64,000 bases of DNA, taken from contig NZ_CP049056.1 of NCBI RefSeq assembly GCF_011044155.1, forward strand, positions 310,001 to 374,000, read 5' to 3'. Of this stretch, positions 37,268 to 53,110 are shown piece by piece; position 1 is the stretch's first letter; every line of letters begins with the position of its first letter. The position numbers were made by a program, and so were the translations under genes. The notes below the pieces were generated by a model. It was not told the DNA's origin, ran no database searches, and saw only the letters and a list, made by a program, of their open reading frames with translations. This DNA comes from Pikeienuella piscinae. Lineage in GTDB: Bacteria; Pseudomonadota; Alphaproteobacteria; Rhodobacterales; Rhodobacteraceae.

Positions 37268-39379
37268 ATGGTGACGAAGCCTTCGCAGTCGCCGGGCCGA
37301 CCGGAGGTTCTCTGGCCGCTCTTCGCCGAAATCGCCAGCCTGCCGGGAATTGGCGAGAAGACCGCGAAGCTCTACGCCAAGCTCGGTGCGACGCGGCCGC
37401 GCGACCTTCTCTTCACCGCGCCGACCGGGGTGATCGACCGGCGCATCCGTCCCTCCATCGCCGGCGCTGCGCTCGATGAAGTGGCGACAGTGGAGGTCGA
37501 GGTCGGCGCGCATCACCCGCCGAACGCAAAGGGCCGACCCTACCGCGTGATGGTGCGCGACGCGGGGGCGGAGTTCATCCTCACCTTCTTTCGCGCGCAT
37601 GAAGACTGGTTGCGCCGGACTCTGCCGACCGGCCAGCGGCGCGTCGTCTCCGGCAAGGTGGAGATTTTCGACGGCGTCATGCAGATGACGCACCCCGATC
37701 ATGTGTTGACCACGGCGGAGGCGGAGGCGTTGCCGCCGTTTGAGCCCGTCTACCCGCTCACTGCCGGTTTGGGGCAGCGCCAGGTGGCGAAGGCGGTCGC
37801 TGCGGCGCTCGCGCTGGCGCCGGCGCTTCCCGAATGGCTGGACCCGCCCCTGAAGGCGCGTGAGGGCTGGCCGGACTGGCGGGACGCGCTCGGCGTGCTT
37901 CATGCGCCGGACGGGCGAATGGCGCTCTCGCATTCTTCCCCGGCGCGCCGGCGGCTCGCCTATGACGAGGTGCTGGCGCACGCGCTGACTCTGGCGCTGG
38001 CCCGGGCGCGGATGCGGCGCGGGCGGGGGCGGGCGTCCAGCGGCGACCGCCGGCTCCGCGACCGGCTGCTGGCGGCGCTTCCCTATTCGCCGACCGGAGC
38101 GCAGTCGCGCGCCGCGGCCGAAATCGAGGCGGATATGGGGGCGTCGGACCGGATGCTCAGGCTCCTGCAGGGGGATGTCGGCGCCGGCAAGACGCTGGTC
38201 GCGATGCTCGCGCTGCTGACCGCGGTGGAGGCGGGCGGGCAGGGCGCGCTGATGGCGCCGACGGAGATCCTGGCGCGCCAGCATTTCGCGTCTCTCTCCC
38301 CGTTGGCGGAGGCGGCGGGCGTTCGGCTGGCGCTGTTGACCGGGCGGGACAAGGGTGGCGCGCGCGCGGCGAAGCTAACCGCCCTGACGGCCGGTGAGAC
38401 GGATATTCTGATCGGCACTCACGCGCTTTTCCAGAAGGGCGTGGAATTCGCCGATCTGCGCCTCGTCGTCGTCGACGAGCAGCACCGGTTCGGCGTTCGC
38501 CAGCGGATCGAACTGACGCAGAAGGGCGCAGGGGTGGATGTCCTCTCGATGACCGCGACGCCGATCCCGCGCACTTTGGCGCTGGCGAGCCATGGCGACA
38601 TGGATATCTCGGTGCTTGATGAGAAACCGCCGGGGCGCCAGCCCATTGAGACGCGGATGATCAACGCCGATCGACTTGACGATGTGGTCGCGCGGCTTCG
38701 CGCCGCGGTGGCGGCGGGGCGGCGGGCCTATTGGGTCTGTCCGCTGGTCGAGGAGAGCGCCGCGTCCGACATGGTCGCCGCGGAAGATCGCGCCGCCGCG
38801 CTGCGCATCGCGCTCGGCTCCGAGAACGTGGCGCTGGTTCATGGCCAGATGCCGCCGGCCGAGAAGGACTCGGCGATGGCCGCTTTCGCCTCGGGCGCGG
38901 TTCAGGTGCTGGTCGCGACAACGGTGATCGAGGTTGGGGTCGACGTGCCGGAGGCGACGATCATGGTGATCGAGCAGGCCGAGCGCTTCGGGCTCGCGCA
39001 GCTTCACCAGCTTCGCGGGCGGGTCGGCAGGGGTGGGGAGGCGTCGACCTGCCTCCTCCTCTATCGCGGTCCGCTTGGCGACGCCGCGCGCGCGCGCCTC
39101 TCGGTGCTTCGTGAAACAGAGGACGGGTTTCGCATCGCGGAGGAGGATCTGAAGCTCCGCGGCGCCGGAGATCTCCTTGGCACCGCCCAGTCCGGTCTGC
39201 CCGAGTTCCGAATCGCGGATCTGGAGGCCGACGGCGCGTTGATGCGCATCGCGCAATCTGATGCGCGCCTGGTGCTGGAGCGCGAGCCCCGTCTGGACGG
39301 CGCGCGCGGTGAAGCGCTGCGTGTTCTGCTTTATCTGCACGACCGCGATGCGACGATCCGTTACCTGGACGGCGCCTGA
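37268..39379 (+). CDS. recG: RecG ATP-dependent DNA helicase
   Basis: Branch-migrating helicase of 703 residues that reverses stalled forks. The wedge/OB domain occupies the first 230 residues. Walker A is LLQGDVGAGKTLVAM and motif II is VVVDEQHRFGVRQ (DEQH in place of DEAH). TMTATPIPRTLALASHGDMD, LHQLRGRVGRGG and the C-terminal TRG-like element follow. ATG lies one base after the ligA stop, so it is translationally linked to ligA. A LexA box begins 12 bases after its stop. Confidence 0.96.
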   Translation: MVTKPSQSPGRPEVLWPLFAEIASLPGIGEKTAKLYAKLGATRPRDLLFTAPTGVIDRRIRPSIAGAALDEVATVEVEVGAHHPPNAKGRPYRVMVRDAGAEFILTFFRAHEDWLRRTLPTGQRRVVSGKVEIFDGVMQMTHPDHVLTTAEAEALPPFEPVYPLTAGLGQRQVAKAVAAALALAPALPEWLDPPLKAREGWPDWRDALGVLHAPDGRMALSHSSPARRRLAYDEVLAHALTLALARARMRRGRGRASSGDRRLRDRLLAALPYSPTGAQSRAAAEIEADMGASDRMLRLLQGDVGAGKTLVAMLALLTAVEAGGQGALMAPTEILARQHFASLSPLAEAAGVRLALLTGRDKGGARAAKLTALTAGETDILIGTHALFQKGVEFADLRLVVVDEQHRFGVRQRIELTQKGAGVDVLSMTATPIPRTLALASHGDMDISVLDEKPPGRQPIETRMINADRLDDVVARLRAAVAAGRRAYWVCPLVEESAASDMVAAEDRAAALRIALGSENVALVHGQMPPAEKDSAMAAFASGAVQVLVATTVIEVGVDVPEATIMVIEQAERFGLAQLHQLRGRVGRGGEASTCLLLYRGPLGDAARARLSVLRETEDGFRIAEEDLKLRGAGDLLGTAQSGLPEFRIADLEADGALMRIAQSDARLVLEREPRLDGARGEALRVLLYLHDRDATIRYLDGA

Positions 39380-39390
39380 CGGTCATTAAT

Positions 39391-39434
39391 GTTCGAGTAA
39401 TGTTCTTGACATTGGGGCGATAAAGAGAACAAAT
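39391..39434 (+). promoter_or_regulatory. LexA (SOS) box overlapping a sigma70 promoter
   Basis: GTTC-GAGTAAT-GTTC (39391-39405) is a perfect GTTC-N7-GTTC direct repeat, the alphaproteobacterial LexA operator. It ends immediately before a perfect -35 TTGACA (39406-39411); 17 bases on, ACAAAT (39429-39434) can serve as -10. Repressor bound here would block the promoter. The only gene before the next terminator is the microprotein at 39482. Confidence 0.8.
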
Positions 39435-39481
39435 AGGGATCAGAACACGTATTATGCAACCTAAAGCAGAAAGATTCCATC

Positions 39482-39610
39482 ATGAGCGCGGTAGGCAGAC
39501 TGATCGAACTCGCAGCCGCCCGTCCGGGAGAGGCCCTTGCCGATGTGCTTGGTCTTGCGGCGATCTGCGTGATGGTTTTCGTTGGTTTCGCGGCGACCGC
39601 GTTCGCCTGA
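39482..39610 (+). CDS. SOS-regulated 42-residue membrane microprotein
   Basis: The frame encodes 42 residues: an N-terminal amphipathic part (MSAVGRLIELAAARPGEALA) and one membrane segment (DVLGLAAICVMVFVGFAA) reaching almost to the C-terminus. An AGAAAG lies 8-10 bases upstream of the ATG. It sits between a LexA-box promoter and a strong terminator and has no partner gene. In Caulobacter, SidA is a similarly small, LexA-controlled inner-membrane inhibitor of cell division; this protein may play a like part, but that is inference from regulation and topology, not from sequence similarity. Confidence 0.7.
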   Translation: MSAVGRLIELAAARPGEALADVLGLAAICVMVFVGFAATAFA

Positions 39611-39715
39611 ACGTCGGATCCCTTCCTTTCTGTCTGCGCGCTTATTCTCTCTGCGCGCTGACCCGTTCCTCGCGTTCTGTCCCGCGAAGGCCGGTGGTGG
39701 ACGCCGATGTCGACT

Positions 39716-39752
39716 GGCGCCGCGGTTCGTACGCCGCGGCGCCTTTTTCTTT
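39716..39752 (+). terminator. Strong rho-independent terminator
   Basis: GGCGCCGCGG (39716-39725) pairs perfectly with CCGCGGCGCC (39734-39743) around an 8-base loop, followed by TTTTTCTTT. It ends the microprotein transcript. On the other strand no T tract follows, so it acts mainly rightward. Confidence 0.9.
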
Positions 39753-39793
39753 GGATCAGAGTGAGCGCGCCGTTTCGCGCCACGGTGACAGCG

Positions 39794-40720
39794 TCAACCG
39801 ACGACTTCGAAAAGAGCGAGGATATTGCGTTGAATCGGCAGAAAATTGTCGTCGGAAGCGATAAACAGATAGGTCCGGTCGGCTTCGCGCCAGAGCGCTA
39901 CGCTCTCGATGTTGTCGATATCCGTTTCCGCGCCGAAATCGAGCAGCGTCTCCTCTTCGAGCGGCGCCGCGCCGTCGCCCCAACGAAACCGTCGCAACCG
40001 AAAGCGAAATCCCCTGAAGACTGAGAACGCCCGTTCCGTCACATAGAGCCAGCCGTCAGGCCCAAAATCGGCGCCGGTTGGGCGATAGGAGCCGCGCCGC
40101 GGAATGGTCTTCGTCTTCCACCCTTCGCGTCCATCGATCCAGATCGTGAAGACGGCGCCGGAGTCGCCCTCTCCGATGGCCCAAAGCTGACCGTCGACGT
40201 CGCGGGCAAGGGCTTCGATCCCCCTGTTCTTGCTGAAATGCGCCCATTCGGGATGCTGGATCCGGGCCCGTGTAGGCCCGCCGGGCTGGTCAAACGCCAG
40301 GATCCTGTGCCGACCTTCATAAGAGACCCAGAGCCGGCCGGATTCGGGATCGCGCGCCAGACCCTCGGCGTCGCGGGCGCCGCCGGGAAGGGGGCTCCCC
40401 TCGGCGTCAAGCATCCGGGCGGCGATGATCGACTCTACGCCGACGAGCCGCCCATTCTCGATCTGGAGCGCGATACGAAACCAGTCTCCGGTGTCGGAGA
40501 TCGCGATTGCGACGCCGGGCCCCTCCATAGCCAGGCCGGAGAGGCCGCCAAACCAGCGTTCTGGCGGGCTTATCGCCACGGCGCCGCGAAAGATCAGCGG
40601 GCCCCCCGCCGGCGTCGCAAGTTGCATCGACCGGCTTTTCGGCGCGGTCGGCGGTGTGAAGCCGTCCGCCAGCGCTGGCGCGGCGGCGAGAAGCGCCGCG
40701 ACGACGAGAGGTTTGATCAT
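39794..40720 (-). CDS. Exported esterase-like/phytase-family beta-propeller protein
   Basis: The 308-residue product has a signal peptide (VVAALLAAAPALADG) and a repetitive beta-propeller-like body with motifs such as FGGLSGLAMEG, DAEGLARDPESGRLWVSYEG, GIEALARDVDGQLWAIGEG and DNIESVALW. This pattern is typical of the 'esterase-like activity of phytase' family found in alphaproteobacterial genomes. The substrate is unknown. It follows mepA with an ATGA overlap, so the two exported proteins are co-translated. Confidence 0.8.
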   Translation of the reverse strand: MIKPLVVAALLAAAPALADGFTPPTAPKSRSMQLATPAGGPLIFRGAVAISPPERWFGGLSGLAMEGPGVAIAISDTGDWFRIALQIENGRLVGVESIIAARMLDAEGSPLPGGARDAEGLARDPESGRLWVSYEGRHRILAFDQPGGPTRARIQHPEWAHFSKNRGIEALARDVDGQLWAIGEGDSGAVFTIWIDGREGWKTKTIPRRGSYRPTGADFGPDGWLYVTERAFSVFRGFRFRLRRFRWGDGAAPLEEETLLDFGAETDIDNIESVALWREADRTYLFIASDDNFLPIQRNILALFEVVG

Positions 40721-47794: not shown

Positions 47795-48355
47795 TTGCAG
47801 ACGCCTGATCTTTTCCAAGGCTGTTTTCCGCTTCGGGCGGGACGCGCGCATGAGATTTGCGGGGCGGGCGCCCGCGGGTTTGCGGCGATTCTCGGCGGAA
47901 TGCGCGAAGGGTGCGTCCTCTGGCTTGTCGAGGACCGGCGGCGCGAGCGGGTGAATCCGCTGGGGCTCGCCCGTTTCTGTGATCCCCGCACGGTGCTTCT
48001 GGCCGGGGCGGGCGGCCATATCGAGATGCTGGCGATGGCCGAGGAGGCCTTGCGCTCGGGCGCGGTCGGGACTGTGGTGGCGGAGACGCGCGCGCCGCTG
48101 GATCTAACGGCGGGCCGGCGGTTGCAACTGGCGGCGGAGGCGGGCGGGGCGCTGGGGATGTTCCTGATCGCCGAGGGCATGGGCAGCAACGCCGCCGAGA
48201 CGCGCTGGCTTTGCGAGCCGCAGTTCGACCCCGACGACTCGACATGCTGGCGCTGGCGTCTTAGAAAGAACAAATCAGGAACATTAGGATCTTGGACGGT
48301 TCGCTGGGATGAGCAGGCGCATCGCATCGCTATGGTTTCCGCGACTGGCGAGTGA
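47795..48355 (+). CDS. imuA: ImuA-type mutagenesis cassette protein
   Basis: RecA-like accessory protein of translesion synthesis, 186 residues. Recognisable parts are AHEICGAGARGFAAILGG, LLAGAGGHIEMLAMAEEALRSGAVGTVVAE and the conserved end RLRKNKSGTLGSW. The start seems to be TTG at 47795, since a stop lies three codons upstream in frame and the N-terminus PDLFQGCFPLRAGRAHE fits the family. It overlaps imuB by 47 bases. Codons 159-169 are strikingly AT-rich and contain a LexA box. Confidence 0.88.
   Translation: MQTPDLFQGCFPLRAGRAHEICGAGARGFAAILGGMREGCVLWLVEDRRRERVNPLGLARFCDPRTVLLAGAGGHIEMLAMAEEALRSGAVGTVVAETRAPLDLTAGRRLQLAAEAGGALGMFLIAEGMGSNAAETRWLCEPQFDPDDSTCWRWRLRKNKSGTLGSWTVRWDEQAHRIAMVSATGE
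48268..48282 (+). promoter_or_regulatory. Perfect LexA box inside the imuA 3' end
   Basis: GAAC-AAATCAG-GAAC is a perfect GAAC-N7-GAAC operator, 27 bases before the imuB ATG. It lies in imuA codons CTT AGA AAG AAC AAA TCA GGA ACA TTA GGA TCT, a run of codons rare in this GC-rich sequence. It may control imuB-dnaE2 separately from imuA or strengthen repression of the whole cassette. Confidence 0.65.
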
Positions 48356-49799
48356 ACGGCGTCTGCGAGACCGGCCAACGACCGGCCCATTCGCGATCGT
48401 CTGGAAAGAAGGCAACGCAGAGCGGGTCTATTGCCCGAACCCGGCGGCCGAAGCGGAGGGTCTATACCGGGGGCAGGGGGTCGCCGACGCCCGCGCGCTC
48501 TGTCCCGATCTCTGCGTCGAAGAGGTCGATCCGGTGGCGGATCGCCGGTTTCTGCTGAATCTCGCCCGTTGGGCCGGGCGCTACTGTCCCTGGGTGGGTC
48601 TGGAGGGCGATGACGGGCTGGTGATGGACATTTCCGGCTCGACCCATCTTTTTGGCGGCGAAACGGCGCTGGCGGATGATATGCGCGCCGCGCTGACGAA
48701 AGCCGGACTCAGCGTCCGGATCGGGCTCGCCGATACGCGCGGCGCCGCGTGGGCGCTGGCGCGGTTCGCCGAAGGGCGCGCGGCGCCGGGAGAGGCGGCG
48801 TTGCGTCTCGCAGAGCTTCCCGTCGCGGCTCTGCGGCTGGATCAGAAGACCTGCGCAAGCCTGAACCGGGTGGGGGTGAGGACCATCGACGCCCTTGCGG
48901 ACCTGCCGCGCCCCACGGTGACGCGCCGTTTCGGCGCCGGTCCACTCCTCCGGCTCGATCAGGCTCTGGGCCGGCAGCCGGAAGAAGTCTCGCCACTCCC
49001 CGAGCCGAAGGTCTTCCAGGTCCGCCTGACGCTGCCGGAGCCGATCGGCCTTAGCCGCGACGTCATGGCGGCGCTGGAGAGAATGCTGGAGCGGCTTTGC
49101 AGCCAACTCGAGGCGCGGGAGAAGGGCGCGCGCGTCCTTCATCTCACCCTGCGGCGGGTCGATCGGGCGAGCAGCCGGATCGAATTGCGCCTGGCGCGCG
49201 CCATGCGCGATGCGGGGCGGATTCTGGCCCTCTACGAGAAGCATGTCGAAAAGATCGATGCGGGGTTCGGGATCGACCAGCTCCGTCTTGAGGCTGTTCA
49301 GGTCGATAATGCGCCCGCCGCCCAAATCAGCCAGTGCGGCGCGCCAGAAGACGCCCGGATCGCCGGGGCGGATGACGGGCTGGCCGACCTGATCACCCGC
49401 CTCGGCGCTCGTGTCGGGCTGGAGAAGATCATCCGTTTCCTGCCCGCCGAAAGCCATATTCCCGAGCGCGGATTCATCACCGCCTGCGCCGCCTATAGCG
49501 AACCCGCCGCGACCTGGCCGGCGTTTTCGCCGCCCCGGCCGTTGGTGATGTTCCCGCCGGAACCCATCGGGGCGAAGGGGAGCGCGCCGCCGAAGCGTTT
49601 TCGCTGGCGTGCGATGACGCTGACCACCGCGCGGGCGACCGGACCGGAACGGATCGCCCCGGAATGGTGGCTGGACGATCCGGCCTGGCGCTCGGGCCTG
49701 CGCGATTACTGGCGGGTGGAGACGCGGGAGGGCCGACGGCTCTGGCTGTTTCATACACCGCAGAACCCCGCCTGGTTCGCGCAGGGGGAATTCGCGTGA
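48309..49799 (+). CDS. imuB: ImuB, catalytically inactive Y-family polymerase homologue
   Basis: The 496-residue protein has the Y-family fold but lacks the catalytic acids: the N-terminal DxD-type site reads SLWFPRLASERRL, and the later SIDE-type site reads GLVMDISGSTHLFGG with only one acid. Known ImuB proteins serve as a hub linking DnaE2, ImuA and the sliding clamp. It lies in the standard imuA-imuB-dnaE2 order, overlapping imuA by 47 bases and dnaE2 by 4. Confidence 0.93.
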   Translation: MSRRIASLWFPRLASERRLRDRPTTGPFAIVWKEGNAERVYCPNPAAEAEGLYRGQGVADARALCPDLCVEEVDPVADRRFLLNLARWAGRYCPWVGLEGDDGLVMDISGSTHLFGGETALADDMRAALTKAGLSVRIGLADTRGAAWALARFAEGRAAPGEAALRLAELPVAALRLDQKTCASLNRVGVRTIDALADLPRPTVTRRFGAGPLLRLDQALGRQPEEVSPLPEPKVFQVRLTLPEPIGLSRDVMAALERMLERLCSQLEAREKGARVLHLTLRRVDRASSRIELRLARAMRDAGRILALYEKHVEKIDAGFGIDQLRLEAVQVDNAPAAQISQCGAPEDARIAGADDGLADLITRLGARVGLEKIIRFLPAESHIPERGFITACAAYSEPAATWPAFSPPRPLVMFPPEPIGAKGSAPPKRFRWRAMTLTTARATGPERIAPEWWLDDPAWRSGLRDYWRVETREGRRLWLFHTPQNPAWFAQGEFA

Positions 49800-52700
49800 G
49801 CTACGCCGAACTTTGCGTCACCTCGAATTTCACCTTTCTCACCGGCGCCTCGCATCCGGAGGAGCTGGTGATGCGCGCCGCCGAACTGGGGCTGGAGGCG
49901 ATCGCGATCACCGATCATAATTCGCTGGCGGGCGTGGTGCGGGCCTATTCCGCGCTGAAGGAGTTGGCGCGCGGGGCCGGGGGCGGACTCAGAATCCGGT
50001 CGCAGACCCGGATCGACCCCAGCAGCCGGCAGGACAGAGGCGGGGGTGACGGGCTCACGCGGCCCGAAGCGCCGCGCCTGCCGCGCCTGATCGTGGGCGC
50101 AAGGTTGGTTCTGCGAGACGGCGGCGTCGACTGGATCGTCCTGCCGACCGACCGGGCGGCCTACGCCCGGCTGACGCGCCTCCTGACCCTTGGCAAGCGG
50201 CGGGCGGAGAAGGGCCGGTGCGATCTCGACAGCGCCGACATGCTGGAGGGCTGCGTCGGGATGATCCTGATCGCCCTGCCGCGCAAGGGGCTGCGCGGCG
50301 TTCGCGGGCCTGTCCGGGCGATGGCCGAGCGCTTTCCGGGGAACGTCTTTCTTGGCGCCGCGCCGCGCTATGACGGCCGCGATCAGGCGCGCTTCGACGC
50401 CTGCGCCCGGCTGGCCGCCGACGTGGCGGCGCCGATGGTCACGCTTGGCGATGTCCTGATGCATCACGCCCGGCGCCGGCGCCTGGCGGATGTGCTGACC
50501 TGCATGCGCGAACATCTCACGATCGACGGGATTGGCGTTCGGGCGTTGGCGAACGCCGAGCGCCGCCTCAAGACGCCGGGGGAGATGGCCAAGCTCTTTC
50601 GCAACCATCCCGCTGCAATCCGCCGCACGGTCGAGATCGCGGGTCGCTGCGGATTCAGCCTGGACGAGCTCTCCTATGAATATCCGGACGAGATCGTCGG
50701 AAGCGAGACGCCGCAGGCCCGGCTCGCCCGCCTGACTGAGGAAGGGTTGCGCCACCGCTATCCGCAGGGTGTTTCTGAACGTATCCGCGCCCTGGTCCGC
50801 AAGGAGCTCGCAATTGTCGAGAAGCTGGGCTTCGCCGCCTATTTCCTGACGGTCCACGACATCGTCGTCCATGCGCGCGGCCTTGGTATCCTCTGCCAGG
50901 GGCGGGGATCGGCGGCGAATTCGATCATTTGCTACGCGCTCGGCATCACCGAAGTCGGCCCCGAGACCATAGCCATGGTCTTTGAGCGTTTCATGTCCGA
51001 ACAGCGCGGCGAACCGCCCGATATCGACGTCGATTTCGAACATGAGCGCCGGGAGGAGGTCATCCAGCATATCTATGAGCATTACGGTCGAGCGCGCGCC
51101 GGGCTCTGCGCCACGGTGATCCATTTCCGTTCCCGCGCCGCGATCCGCGAAGTCGGCAAGGTCATGGGACTGAGCCAGGATATCGTCGCCGCGCTCTCTG
51201 GCCGCACCTGGGGCTGGTCCGACGAAGGCGTCGACGAGGCGCAGATCCGCGAGGTCGGCCTCGACCCTTCCGACCGGCGCCTCGTCCAGACGCTTGAGAT
51301 GATCCGGGAGATCATCGGCTTTCCCCGGCATCTCTCGCAGCATGTAGGCGGTTTCGTGATCACCAGGGGGCGGCTGGACGAGCTCTGCCCGATCGAGAAC
51401 GCCGCGATGGAGGACCGCACGGTCATCGAATGGGACAAGGACGATATCGACGCGCTCGGCATTCTGAAGATCGACGTGCTGTCGCTGGGGATGCTGACCT
51501 GCATCCGCAAATGCTTCGACCTGATCGCCGAACATGACGGCGAGCGTCTTTCCATCGCCGCCATTCCGCAGGATGACGAGGCGACCTATGACATGCTCTG
51601 CGAGGCGGATGCGATCGGCGTCTTTCAGGTGGAGAGCCGGGCGCAGATGAATTTCCTGCCCCGCATGCGACCGCGCGAATTCTATGATCTGGTGATCGAG
51701 GTCGCCATCGTCCGCCCCGGCCCGATTCAGGGCGGCATGGTGCAACCTTATATCAAGCGACGGCGGAAGAAGGAAAAGGTCTCATTTCCGTCTCGGGAGC
51801 TTGAAGACGTTCTCGGCAAGACTCTCGGCGTGCCGCTCTTTCAGGAACAGGCGATGCAGATCGCCGTGGTCGCCGCCGGCTTCACGCCGGAGGAGGCCGA
51901 CCGCTTGCGCCGTTCCCTCGCCACCTTTCGGCGCATGGGAACGATCGGGGAGTTCAGGGACCGGTTCGTCGCCGGTATGCTGGAGCGCGGTTACAAGCCG
52001 GATTTCGCGGCGCGCTGTTTCTCGCAGATCGAGGGTTTCGCCGATTACGGCTTTCCTGAAAGTCACGCCGCCAGCTTCGCGATGCTCGCCTATGTCTCCG
52101 CTTGGCTGAAGCATCATCACCCCGCCGCTTTCGCCTGCGCGCTCCTCAATGCGCAGCCGATGGGGTTTTACGCTCCGGCGCAGATCGTGCGGGATGTCCG
52201 CGAGCATCGGATCGAGGTACGCCCGATCTGCGTCAACGCCAGCCAGTGGGACAACACGCTGGAGCGTCGGACCGACGGCGCGCTCGCGCTGCGGCTCGGC
52301 TTTCGACAGATCAAGGGATTTCGGAAGGAGGACGCGGACTGGATCGTAGCGGCGCGGGGTAACGGATATCCGGATCCGGAAAGCCTCTGGCTCAGGGCCG
52401 GGACGGCGCCGGCGGCTCTCGAAAAACTGGCGGACGCCGACGCTTTCGCCCGTCTCGGCCTGTCGCGCCGGAAAGCGCTCTGGCGGGTCAAGGCGATCCG
52501 CGGCGCGCGGCCGCTGCTGCTCTTCGACGACAGGATCGACGGCGAGGGCGTTCGCGAGCCCGATGTCGCGCTGCCGGCCATGCGTCTCGGGGAAGAGGTG
52601 ATCGAGGATTATCTCTCGATGCGCCTCAGCCTCAGGGCGCACCCGATGGAACTGTTGCGCCCCGCCTTGCCCGGTCTCACCCCGCATGCCGAATTGCAGG

Positions 52701-53110
52701 AGGCTTCGCGGCGGGATGTCGCCGTCTGCGGGCTCGTCATCACCCGCCAGCGGCCGGGAACGGCCTCGGGGGTGATTTTCATCACACTGGAGGACGAGAC
52801 AGGAATCAGCAATGTCGTAGTCTGGCCGAAGGTTTATGAACAGTTTCGCCGGGCGATTATCGCCGGGCGATTGCTGCGCGTGGCCGGGCGGCTGGAGCGC
52901 GAGGGGATCGTCGTCCATCTGATCGCGAGAACGGTCGAGGACCTTTCCGATCGACTTTCCCGGCTGGGAGAGGCGATGAACGGGACGCCGGAGGCGAAGC
53001 GCGGGCGCCCTGACCCAACCCTCCGAGCTTCGATGGGCTCTCGAGCTTCTCCGGCGCGCCATCCGCGCGAACAATCCAGAAAGTTGTTTCCGAGTCGGGA
53101 CTTTCACTGA
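49796..53110 (+). CDS. dnaE2: Error-prone DNA polymerase DnaE2
   Basis: C-family polymerase of 1104 residues that carries out damage-induced translesion synthesis. The PHP domain opens the protein (SYAELCVTSNFTFLTGASHPEEL). The polymerase acids are in GEPPDIDVDFEHERREEV, with GVPLFQEQAMQIA, GFADYGFPESHAASFAMLAY and a C-terminal OB fold (VAVCGLVITRQRPGTASGVIF). GTG at 49796 overlaps the imuB stop (GTGA) and gives the conserved N-terminus. Confidence 0.96.
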   Translation: MSYAELCVTSNFTFLTGASHPEELVMRAAELGLEAIAITDHNSLAGVVRAYSALKELARGAGGGLRIRSQTRIDPSSRQDRGGGDGLTRPEAPRLPRLIVGARLVLRDGGVDWIVLPTDRAAYARLTRLLTLGKRRAEKGRCDLDSADMLEGCVGMILIALPRKGLRGVRGPVRAMAERFPGNVFLGAAPRYDGRDQARFDACARLAADVAAPMVTLGDVLMHHARRRRLADVLTCMREHLTIDGIGVRALANAERRLKTPGEMAKLFRNHPAAIRRTVEIAGRCGFSLDELSYEYPDEIVGSETPQARLARLTEEGLRHRYPQGVSERIRALVRKELAIVEKLGFAAYFLTVHDIVVHARGLGILCQGRGSAANSIICYALGITEVGPETIAMVFERFMSEQRGEPPDIDVDFEHERREEVIQHIYEHYGRARAGLCATVIHFRSRAAIREVGKVMGLSQDIVAALSGRTWGWSDEGVDEAQIREVGLDPSDRRLVQTLEMIREIIGFPRHLSQHVGGFVITRGRLDELCPIENAAMEDRTVIEWDKDDIDALGILKIDVLSLGMLTCIRKCFDLIAEHDGERLSIAAIPQDDEATYDMLCEADAIGVFQVESRAQMNFLPRMRPREFYDLVIEVAIVRPGPIQGGMVQPYIKRRRKKEKVSFPSRELEDVLGKTLGVPLFQEQAMQIAVVAAGFTPEEADRLRRSLATFRRMGTIGEFRDRFVAGMLERGYKPDFAARCFSQIEGFADYGFPESHAASFAMLAYVSAWLKHHHPAAFACALLNAQPMGFYAPAQIVRDVREHRIEVRPICVNASQWDNTLERRTDGALALRLGFRQIKGFRKEDADWIVAARGNGYPDPESLWLRAGTAPAALEKLADADAFARLGLSRRKALWRVKAIRGARPLLLFDDRIDGEGVREPDVALPAMRLGEEVIEDYLSMRLSLRAHPMELLRPALPGLTPHAELQEASRRDVAVCGLVITRQRPGTASGVIFITLEDETGISNVVVWPKVYEQFRRAIIAGRLLRVAGRLEREGIVVHLIARTVEDLSDRLSRLGEAMNGTPEAKRGRPDPTLRASMGSRASPARHPREQSRKLFPSRDFH

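Follow-up and report, generated by a model that had tools for sequence, protein, structure and literature searches.

Organization of the locus

In the 64,000-nucleotide stretch of the Pikeienuella piscinae genome analyzed here (the window), recG is followed on the same strand by a short unit consisting of a LexA operator, promoter-like elements, a 42-codon open reading frame for a predicted membrane microprotein, and an intrinsic terminator. The features of the locus, in window coordinates, are the following:

37268..39379, + strand: recG (NCBIfam RecG, 1086.5 bits)
39391..39405, + strand: LexA operator GTTC-N7-GTTC, GTTCGAGTAATGTTC, adjoining the -35 element
39406..39411, + strand: -35 element TTGACA (mostly TTTACA or TTGAC in relatives)
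39427..39441, + strand: second, inverted LexA-like element GAACAAATAGGGATC, overlying the putative -10 element
39429-39434, + strand: putative -10 element ACAAAT, separated from the -35 element by a 17-nt spacer
39465..39478, + strand: weak ribosome-binding region, AGCAGAAAGA, mostly stronger in relatives
39482..39610, + strand: microprotein open reading frame, ATG start, 42 codons, stop codon included in the coordinates
39608..39752, + strand: 3'UTR, counted from the stop codon, a reduced version of the structured RNA found in relatives
39668..39690, + strand: hairpin in the predicted fold, with CUGUCC (39677-39682) in its 8-nt loop
39716..39752, + strand: intrinsic terminator, 11 pairs (10 G-C) and a T tract

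The perfect operator abutting TTGACA, the 17-nt spacer, and ACAAAT had been reported in a preliminary description of this locus and are all present, as is the 42-codon frame with one predicted membrane segment. The hairpin with a T tract, described there as a stem of 10 GC pairs, is an intrinsic terminator, but its stem (39716-39743, followed by TTTTTCTTT) has 11 pairs. The statement that nothing else is present in the unit has to be given up, in view of the second LexA-like element and of a conserved structured RNA in the 3'UTR of many relatives. The 42-residue query found a single copy of the microprotein in its own genome. We read the locus as an SOS unit of one gene that is repressed by LexA and keeps its place behind recG throughout a single family, which we take to be the Rhodobacteraceae.

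Statistics within the window are weak. The LexA box pattern occurs three times against 1.96 expected, i.e., at chance level, and terminator-like sites within 38900-40300 number 3 against 1.6 expected. A consensus scan called no sigma-70 promoter in the same interval, because ACAAAT is a poor -10 element. Conservation of position, box, and frame across the family is decisive, and the sequence evidence that lifts the unit beyond chance, which is strong, is comparative.

Distribution and genomic context of the microprotein gene

A search of 41 genomes (own included) with the 42-residue query gave matches at E<=1 in 17 genomes, among which eight loci (own included) combine a short frame with a perfect LexA box; by eye, all eight short frames lie after an apparent RecG C-terminus. 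The remaining matches in these 17 genomes had no box nearby and were dropped. A first profile, built from seven sequences, matched 227/295 genomes of the family at E<=0.01. Its 30 best rows were represented by 29 examined loci (L026-L054) and a thirtieth (L003) seen among the query-search loci; the RecG motif RGRVGRG and a perfect LexA box (within 260 nt) were found upstream in 29/29 of these best loci. A second profile (39 sequences) matched 283/292 genomes and 110/112 genera of the order at E<=0.01, a threshold at which a few of the matches are expected to be due to chance. The nine unmatched genomes include four of genus g565, whose members either match weakly (E about 5e-4 to 3e-3) or do not match at all, and two of genus g40; since other members of both genera do match weakly, some of the nine probably reflect divergence rather than absence. 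Among 387 genomes of the class, the second profile at E<=0.003 produced eight matches, namely 6/6 genomes of the own family and 2/381 others. Both non-family matches are weak and are embedded in longer frames (245 and 298 residues), and no credible relative outside the family was found among the 381 class genomes.

The promoter was also used as a query in its own right. A pattern that described the operator and promoter sequences of relatives, and left out the coding region altogether, was used to scan 84,980 genomes and yielded at least 118 stretches and at least 80 loci. Among the 80 loci listed, recG precedes in 79 (tblastn) and the microprotein follows in 77, the exceptions being loci whose sequence ends too early (L166 for recG; L115, L163, and L173 for the microprotein). 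The box is present in these loci by construction; the finding is that the promoter leads to the microprotein gene. Where the genomes that share this promoter and gene are named, the names include Ruegeria, Roseovarius, Paracoccus, Sulfitobacter, and Rhodobacter, all of which we take to be members of the Rhodobacteraceae; others are labelled Rhodobacteraceae, Rhodobacterales, or Alphaproteobacteria bacterium. The placement behind recG noted in the preliminary description thus extends to the best profile loci and the listed promoter-pattern loci: recG stands before the unit in every relative with enough sequence to see. According to the available part of a comparative regulon paper, recG of some alphaproteobacteria appears LexA-regulated (PMC3323433), which might reflect the microprotein neighborhood; recG is absent from the main text of the Dinoroseobacter LexA paper (PMC6473078).

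A phage search with the microprotein gave no match, and a plasmid search gave one, a probable relative in Pseudorhodobacter turbinis (NZ_CP039965.1, 332599-332709; 48.6% identity, E 7e-3). This 1.58-Mb record is filed as a plasmid and is perhaps a chromid.

LexA-type operators in the host genome

Exact matches to the LexA box number 138 in the 4.37-Mb genome, versus 48 for a reversed control pattern, and the stricter box GTTCN5ATGTTC has 16 matches versus 3 for the control. Matches to the SOS box thus often arise by chance, which counts against reading function from the box alone. Apart from the microprotein unit, five of the 16 strict matches precede lexA, recA, tag, pcrA/uvrD, and mreB, and several of the other ten fall inside long frames. 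Judged by these sites, the microprotein box is part of the LexA code used by the host organism. The box upstream of mreB, GTTCTGTTAATGTTC, lies just before the gene (C1:400341-400355 of the own genome); SOS control of this rod-shape gene would be unusual.

The window itself contains further SOS-type features:

48268: box GAACAAATCAGGAAC (GAAC-N7-GAAC), directly before a DinB-like gene
48309-49799: DinB-like gene, read as imuB (library match to DNA polymerase IV, below the cut-off)
49664-53110: dnaE2, error-prone polymerase, following imuB

We read the DinB-like gene as imuB. The box, imuB, and dnaE2 form a second SOS unit about 9 kb from the microprotein unit, with no room for imuA between the box and imuB.

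In 90/109 loci, a distance of 23 nt separates the second element of the microprotein promoter from the first box, which it follows. Its second half is CAAC in 90/109 and GAAC in 5/109, which gives the family form GAAC-N7-CAAC, and the element of the window is a weaker version of it. The first GAAC was required by the fetch pattern for 77/109 loci, the second half and the exact place being free to vary; the other 32 loci, fetched without the promoter pattern, also show GAAC. Because the imuB operator shares this form, we interpret the second element as a putative inverted LexA site over the -10 element, to which LexA would bind. Upstream of recA in the own genome, an imperfect ATTCCCAATTTGTTC is followed, in the direction of recA, by a perfect GAACATTAAGTGAAC. 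A GTTC-type site followed by a GAAC-type site may be a wider form of SOS promoter in this lineage. For the division inhibitor family SulA (PF03846), the best place in the genome scored 18.1 bits, below the 23.1 cut-off, and the 3.1-kb locus of that place contains no LexA-type box.

Selection, form, and annotation of the microprotein

The microprotein frame is under purifying selection. In 27 disjoint equal-length pairs, drawn from 109 sequences and chosen by nucleotide identity alone, pN/pS is 0.30 in the reading frame, with pN<pS in 27/27 pairs; the two shifted frames give 1.33 and 2.29 (pN<pS in 5/27 and 1/27). An added protein-identity filter left the result similar (33 pairs, pN/pS 0.35, pN<pS in 32/33). 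Conservation of frame and LexA box and a synonymous bias, which the preliminary description had put forward as checks, are thus all evident in the relatives.

Most members of the set of 109 (72) have 40 residues, the range being 34-50. Two Paracoccus members (L101, L145) have an apparent inner ATG start, which gives about 31 residues and removes most of the N-terminal helix, and the two weakest proteins among the promoter-pattern loci listed (15.0 and 18.4 bits) are likewise from Paracoccus. A [DE]-x-x-G motif is found in 109/109 members (D-x-x-G in the protein of the window), and 103/109 combine a hydrophobic residue with P close to their end, the protein of the window not being one of them. 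The number of K and R residues is higher on the N side of the membrane stretch than on the C side in 109/109; beyond the best 19-residue membrane stretch there is no charged residue, and the C-terminus lies at most 7 residues past it. For the protein of the window, AlphaFold2 places helices at residues 3-13 and 15-41 (pLDDT 89.8, pTM 0.50); no solved structure was found. The predicted form is a single-pass membrane protein, N-in/C-out, with a charged N-terminal helix, D-x-x-G, and a membrane helix that would run to the C-terminus.

Searches of family libraries with 31 members showed no match of any member to a Pfam or PADLOC family at E<=1, and NCBIfam and PHROG gave a small number of weak matches with no consistent pattern (0.011 at best for NCBIfam, in one member; 0.0029 at best for PHROG, in 2/31 members). 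By these comparisons, no Pfam or NCBIfam model describes the microprotein. In a search of the open-licence literature, which leaves out most subscription papers, no description of the gene or of its RNA was found. Overall, the sequence comparisons support the microprotein as a real, conserved, LexA-boxed family of predicted membrane proteins.

A structured RNA in the 3'UTR of many relatives

Terminator-like ends are found in 90/107 regions downstream of the microprotein, versus 10/107 after shuffling. Between the stop codon and the terminator, TGCCTG occurs in 90/107 regions (9.8 shuffled) and CTGTCC in 78/107 (12.3 shuffled; reverse complement 2/107), so that both motifs recur on one strand only. 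When its final 42 nt are removed, the region has a more stable fold than shuffles of its letters (mean z -2.19; n=97, 15 shuffles each) and forms a multiloop of at least three branches in 58/97 cases versus 20.7 expected. The C-rich motifs are more often unpaired (0.73 versus 0.39), the value being higher in 89/92.

Alignment of 78 diverse 3'UTRs by MAFFT and RNAalifold recovered little beyond the terminator; more was recovered with a seed of closely similar sequences (A5) and with a covariance model. The model, R1, was built from 8 sequences and has matches at E<=1 in 93/99 sources, the weakest being chance matches. Of the 66 sources that reached E<=1e-9, the covariation alignment used 62, the 8 seeds included; the four left out were L154 (cut), L148 (a near-duplicate of L054), L167, and L151. 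In this alignment, 27/34 pairs show two-sided changes versus 19.8 shuffled, and the cells with two-sided changes number 255 versus 57.6 shuffled and 32-55 in slid controls. Since the alignment leans towards model R1, a duplex-swap test of the closing helix matters, in which the strands were anchored by flanking sequence with no fitted alignment: native duplexes average -18.8 kcal/mol versus -13.3 kcal/mol for swapped ones and are better in 81/89 cases.

In 61 family genomes, R1 with strict filters identified 33 places in 32 genomes, and 32 of these 33 sit at most about 110 nt behind the microprotein. Coordinates placed 22 of them; the other 11 were fetched, and the microprotein frame was found directly upstream in 10, with a perfect box in 9/10 and the RecG motif in 9/10 (in L250, the motif was not seen in the short stretch examined). 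The last of the 11 belongs to G085, which has two places, and is the weaker one. Four of the genomes with these 11 places (G005, G021, G085, G088) have no match to the first protein profile. Rfam 15 gave 0 matches over the gathering threshold in 10 loci; the weak E-value matches to Ysr141, TB11Cs4H1, sX13, and ncS54 were rejected as far below the gathering scores. The available parts of two surveys of structured RNAs (PMC2864571, PMC8632094) name other Rhodobacterales motifs and not the microprotein 3'UTR RNA. On this comparative evidence, many relatives carry a conserved, covarying multi-hairpin RNA in the 3'UTR.

R1 matches neither the 3'UTR of the window nor, under strict filters, any other place in its genome, and the only R1 match in the window at E<=1 (27311) falls among the chance matches. 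The 3'UTR of the window keeps the hairpin at 39668-39690, whose CUGUCC has an unpaired probability of 1.0, and the terminator; by eye, two congeners (L002, L003) are without even that CUGUCC-hairpin pattern. Since the microprotein is near-universal and the RNA is not, the protein appears to be the more indispensable part.

Complementarity between the 3'UTR RNA and the ftsZ start

The DinR sRNA of Klebsiella, which comes from the 3' end of a LexA-controlled small-protein mRNA, has been shown experimentally to silence ftsZ, as stated in the available part of the report (PMC10907235), and ftsZ was for this reason examined before other targets. The sample consisted of 20 genomes chosen for carrying the RNA (loci L253-L272), the genome of the window not being among them. 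Six motifs were tested at the outset in a 150-nt region that includes the ftsZ start. There, GGACAG occurs in 14/20 genomes versus 1.0 shuffled and is strongly enriched, GGACAGG and GGGACAG are slightly enriched (3 and 2 of 20), and CAGGCA, CAGGCAG, and GAGGCA are hardly enriched or not at all (2, 1, and 1 of 20); ACAGGC was noticed only afterwards. Within the 26 nt before the start, GGACAG is present in 11/20 genomes, the full 12-mer ACAGGCGGACAG in 10/20, and ACAGGCGGA, which continues with CAG in 10 ftsZ starts, in 19/20. Across the 20 ftsZ loci, there are 19 instances of ACAGGCGGA at 3-9 nt before an ATG; in 1.26 million bases of recG loci (both strands counted), it has 6 occurrences in all and never takes this position. 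As a ribosome-binding region of ftsZ, this sequence is unusual in 19/20 genomes. It is likely to be a regulatory target whatever its partner.

On the RNA side, CUGUCC and GCCUGU are the exact complements of GGACAG and ACAGGC. CUGUCC occurs in 16 of the 20 RNAs and GCCUGU in 12, at least one of them in 18 and neither in 2. A complementarity score between each RNA and the ftsZ start of its own genome reaches 68, versus 25.3 for shuffled starts (sd 6.8, maximum 45) and 53.5 when RNA and ftsZ partners are swapped (p 0.005). With accessibility included, the values are -242.9 for own, -93.9 (sd 21) for shuffled, and -221.2 for swapped partners (p 0.022). Without genomes G046 and G006, the swap advantage disappears (p 0.39); these two genomes are the informative ones, their variants being GGATTACGA at ftsZ with TCGTAATCC in the RNA, and GGATAG at ftsZ with CTATCC in the RNA. 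In a larger set of 63 RNAs, the majority ftsZ start has a mean score of 3.30 versus 1.13 for the starts of own neighboring genes, a heuristic set of control starts, and ftsZ beats the mean of own controls in 52/62 RNAs and not in 10. At the level of sequence, complementarity between the RNA and the ftsZ start is well supported, and co-variation between them is only suggestive.

The fold could instead be a stability or processing element only, its match to ftsZ arising by coincidence because one motif is rich in C and the other in G. We consider this a serious possibility, somewhat short of an even chance. It would account for the dependence of the compensatory signal on two genomes, for the 33/195 neighboring-gene starts that score as well as ftsZ when each is taken one by one with its own RNA, and for the persistence of the microprotein in genomes with a reduced RNA or with none found. 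A coincidence is harder to reconcile with motifs that are strand-specific (the 78/107 of CTGTCC against 2/107 for its reverse complement) and mostly unpaired, and with the averages over 16 RNAs, in which only 3/195 control starts reach the ftsZ score and the other 192 are outranked.

Functional interpretation

We propose that the unit may be an SOS division checkpoint, acting through the membrane microprotein and perhaps through the RNA against ftsZ, and we regard the chances of this reading as even. What the sequences show is the gene, its operator, selection on the coding frame, the topology pattern, the structure of the RNA, and its complementarity to ftsZ. SOS induction of the unit is a prediction that we consider almost certain: LexA would repress it, and upon DNA damage RecA would trigger LexA cleavage and thereby free the promoter. 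A short mRNA ending at its own terminator would be made, and the protein of about 40 residues would insert in the inner membrane with one helix, its positive N-terminal helix inside and almost nothing outside. By analogy, the microprotein would delay division by binding the septal wall machinery in the membrane (FtsW/FtsI/FtsN, as SidA), a block for which the arguments are about evenly balanced. In many relatives, the 3'UTR motifs CUGUCC/GCCUGU would pair with the ftsZ start and lower FtsZ synthesis, as in the case of Klebsiella DinR; such silencing is conceivable and at present rather doubtful. A dual-function transcript is a tentative and somewhat unlikely extension of the checkpoint: the near-universal microprotein would stall the divisome, and the covarying multi-loop RNA that many species carry would silence ftsZ at its start.

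Several known systems resemble the proposed checkpoint; their properties are given here as described in the available parts of the cited papers. SidA of Caulobacter crescentus is a LexA-controlled inner-membrane protein of 29 residues that blocks division (PMC4211646). The microprotein is likewise a LexA-boxed, very small predicted inner-membrane protein of an alphaproteobacterium (about 31-50 residues), and its shortened Paracoccus members are close to SidA in size. Unlike SidA, with which it was compared by description only, it is restricted to a single bacterial family, has a constant place behind recG, is often accompanied by an RNA, and carries an extra N-terminal helix with D-x-x-G; division inhibition was shown for SidA and is proposed for the microprotein. 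YneA of Bacillus binds FtsW TM7, and SosA, SidA, and ChiZ are predicted to act at FtsW (PMC13396833); SosA of Staphylococcus is another SOS-induced small membrane division inhibitor (PMC6851548). The microprotein is similar to YneA and SosA in its SOS box, small size, and predicted membrane helix, whereas YneA needs a periplasmic LysM domain and the microprotein ends at most 7 residues past the membrane stretch. As with DinR, the RNA forms the 3' end of a LexA-boxed small-protein gene and is complementary to the ftsZ start, here from sequence alone; it is, however, a different RNA in a different host gene and lineage, its motif is often repeated, and its fold covaries.

Microproteins often tune membrane partners. 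The microprotein could accordingly be an SOS regulator of another membrane protein (a transporter, a protease, or a respiratory or rod complex) rather than of the divisome, and the LexA-type box before mreB in the same genome is in line with such a role. We nevertheless find it unlikely, given that the complementarity to ftsZ points to division and that, in the available parts of the reports, the LexA-controlled membrane proteins with known partners (SidA, YneA, and SosA) act on division (PMC4211646, PMC13396833, PMC6851548).

LexA-controlled single-helix peptides can also be toxins, which counts against the checkpoint. TisB and DinQ of E. coli are described, in the available text, as SOS-controlled small membrane peptides that are toxins with antisense RNA (PMC8145889, PMC3567139), and a toxin of this type would depolarize the membrane and favor dormancy under the control of an RNA antitoxin. 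The microprotein belongs to the same size class, with a LexA box, a single helix, and a promoter with two LexA-like elements. In contrast to TisB and DinQ, no antisense antitoxin was seen at the unit, one simple scan having called no antisense promoter there. No charge follows the helix, and K and R residues prevail on its N side in 109/109 members. A Hok-like control, pairing the 3'UTR with its own start region, showed no native advantage over swapped or shuffled sequences (native -24.96, swapped -25.30, shuffled -25.81; n=91). We consider a toxin quite improbable. Finally, a chance frame behind a chance box, as the chance-level box frequency in the window might suggest, is refuted because selection is frame-specific, and it is also at odds with the conserved distribution, the recG synteny, and the conserved box.

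Members of the Rhodobacteraceae are abundant marine bacteria and carry gene transfer agents. The literature searched yielded no description of how these bacteria (Ruegeria, Roseovarius, Paracoccus, Rhodobacter, and others) hold division after damage. The microprotein gene of the proposed checkpoint, matched in 283/292 genomes of the order and outside the family models searched, offers a ready target for this question. Together, the covarying 3'UTR and its complementarity to ftsZ make a two-level checkpoint directly testable: if it is real, one SOS transcript would block division at two levels.
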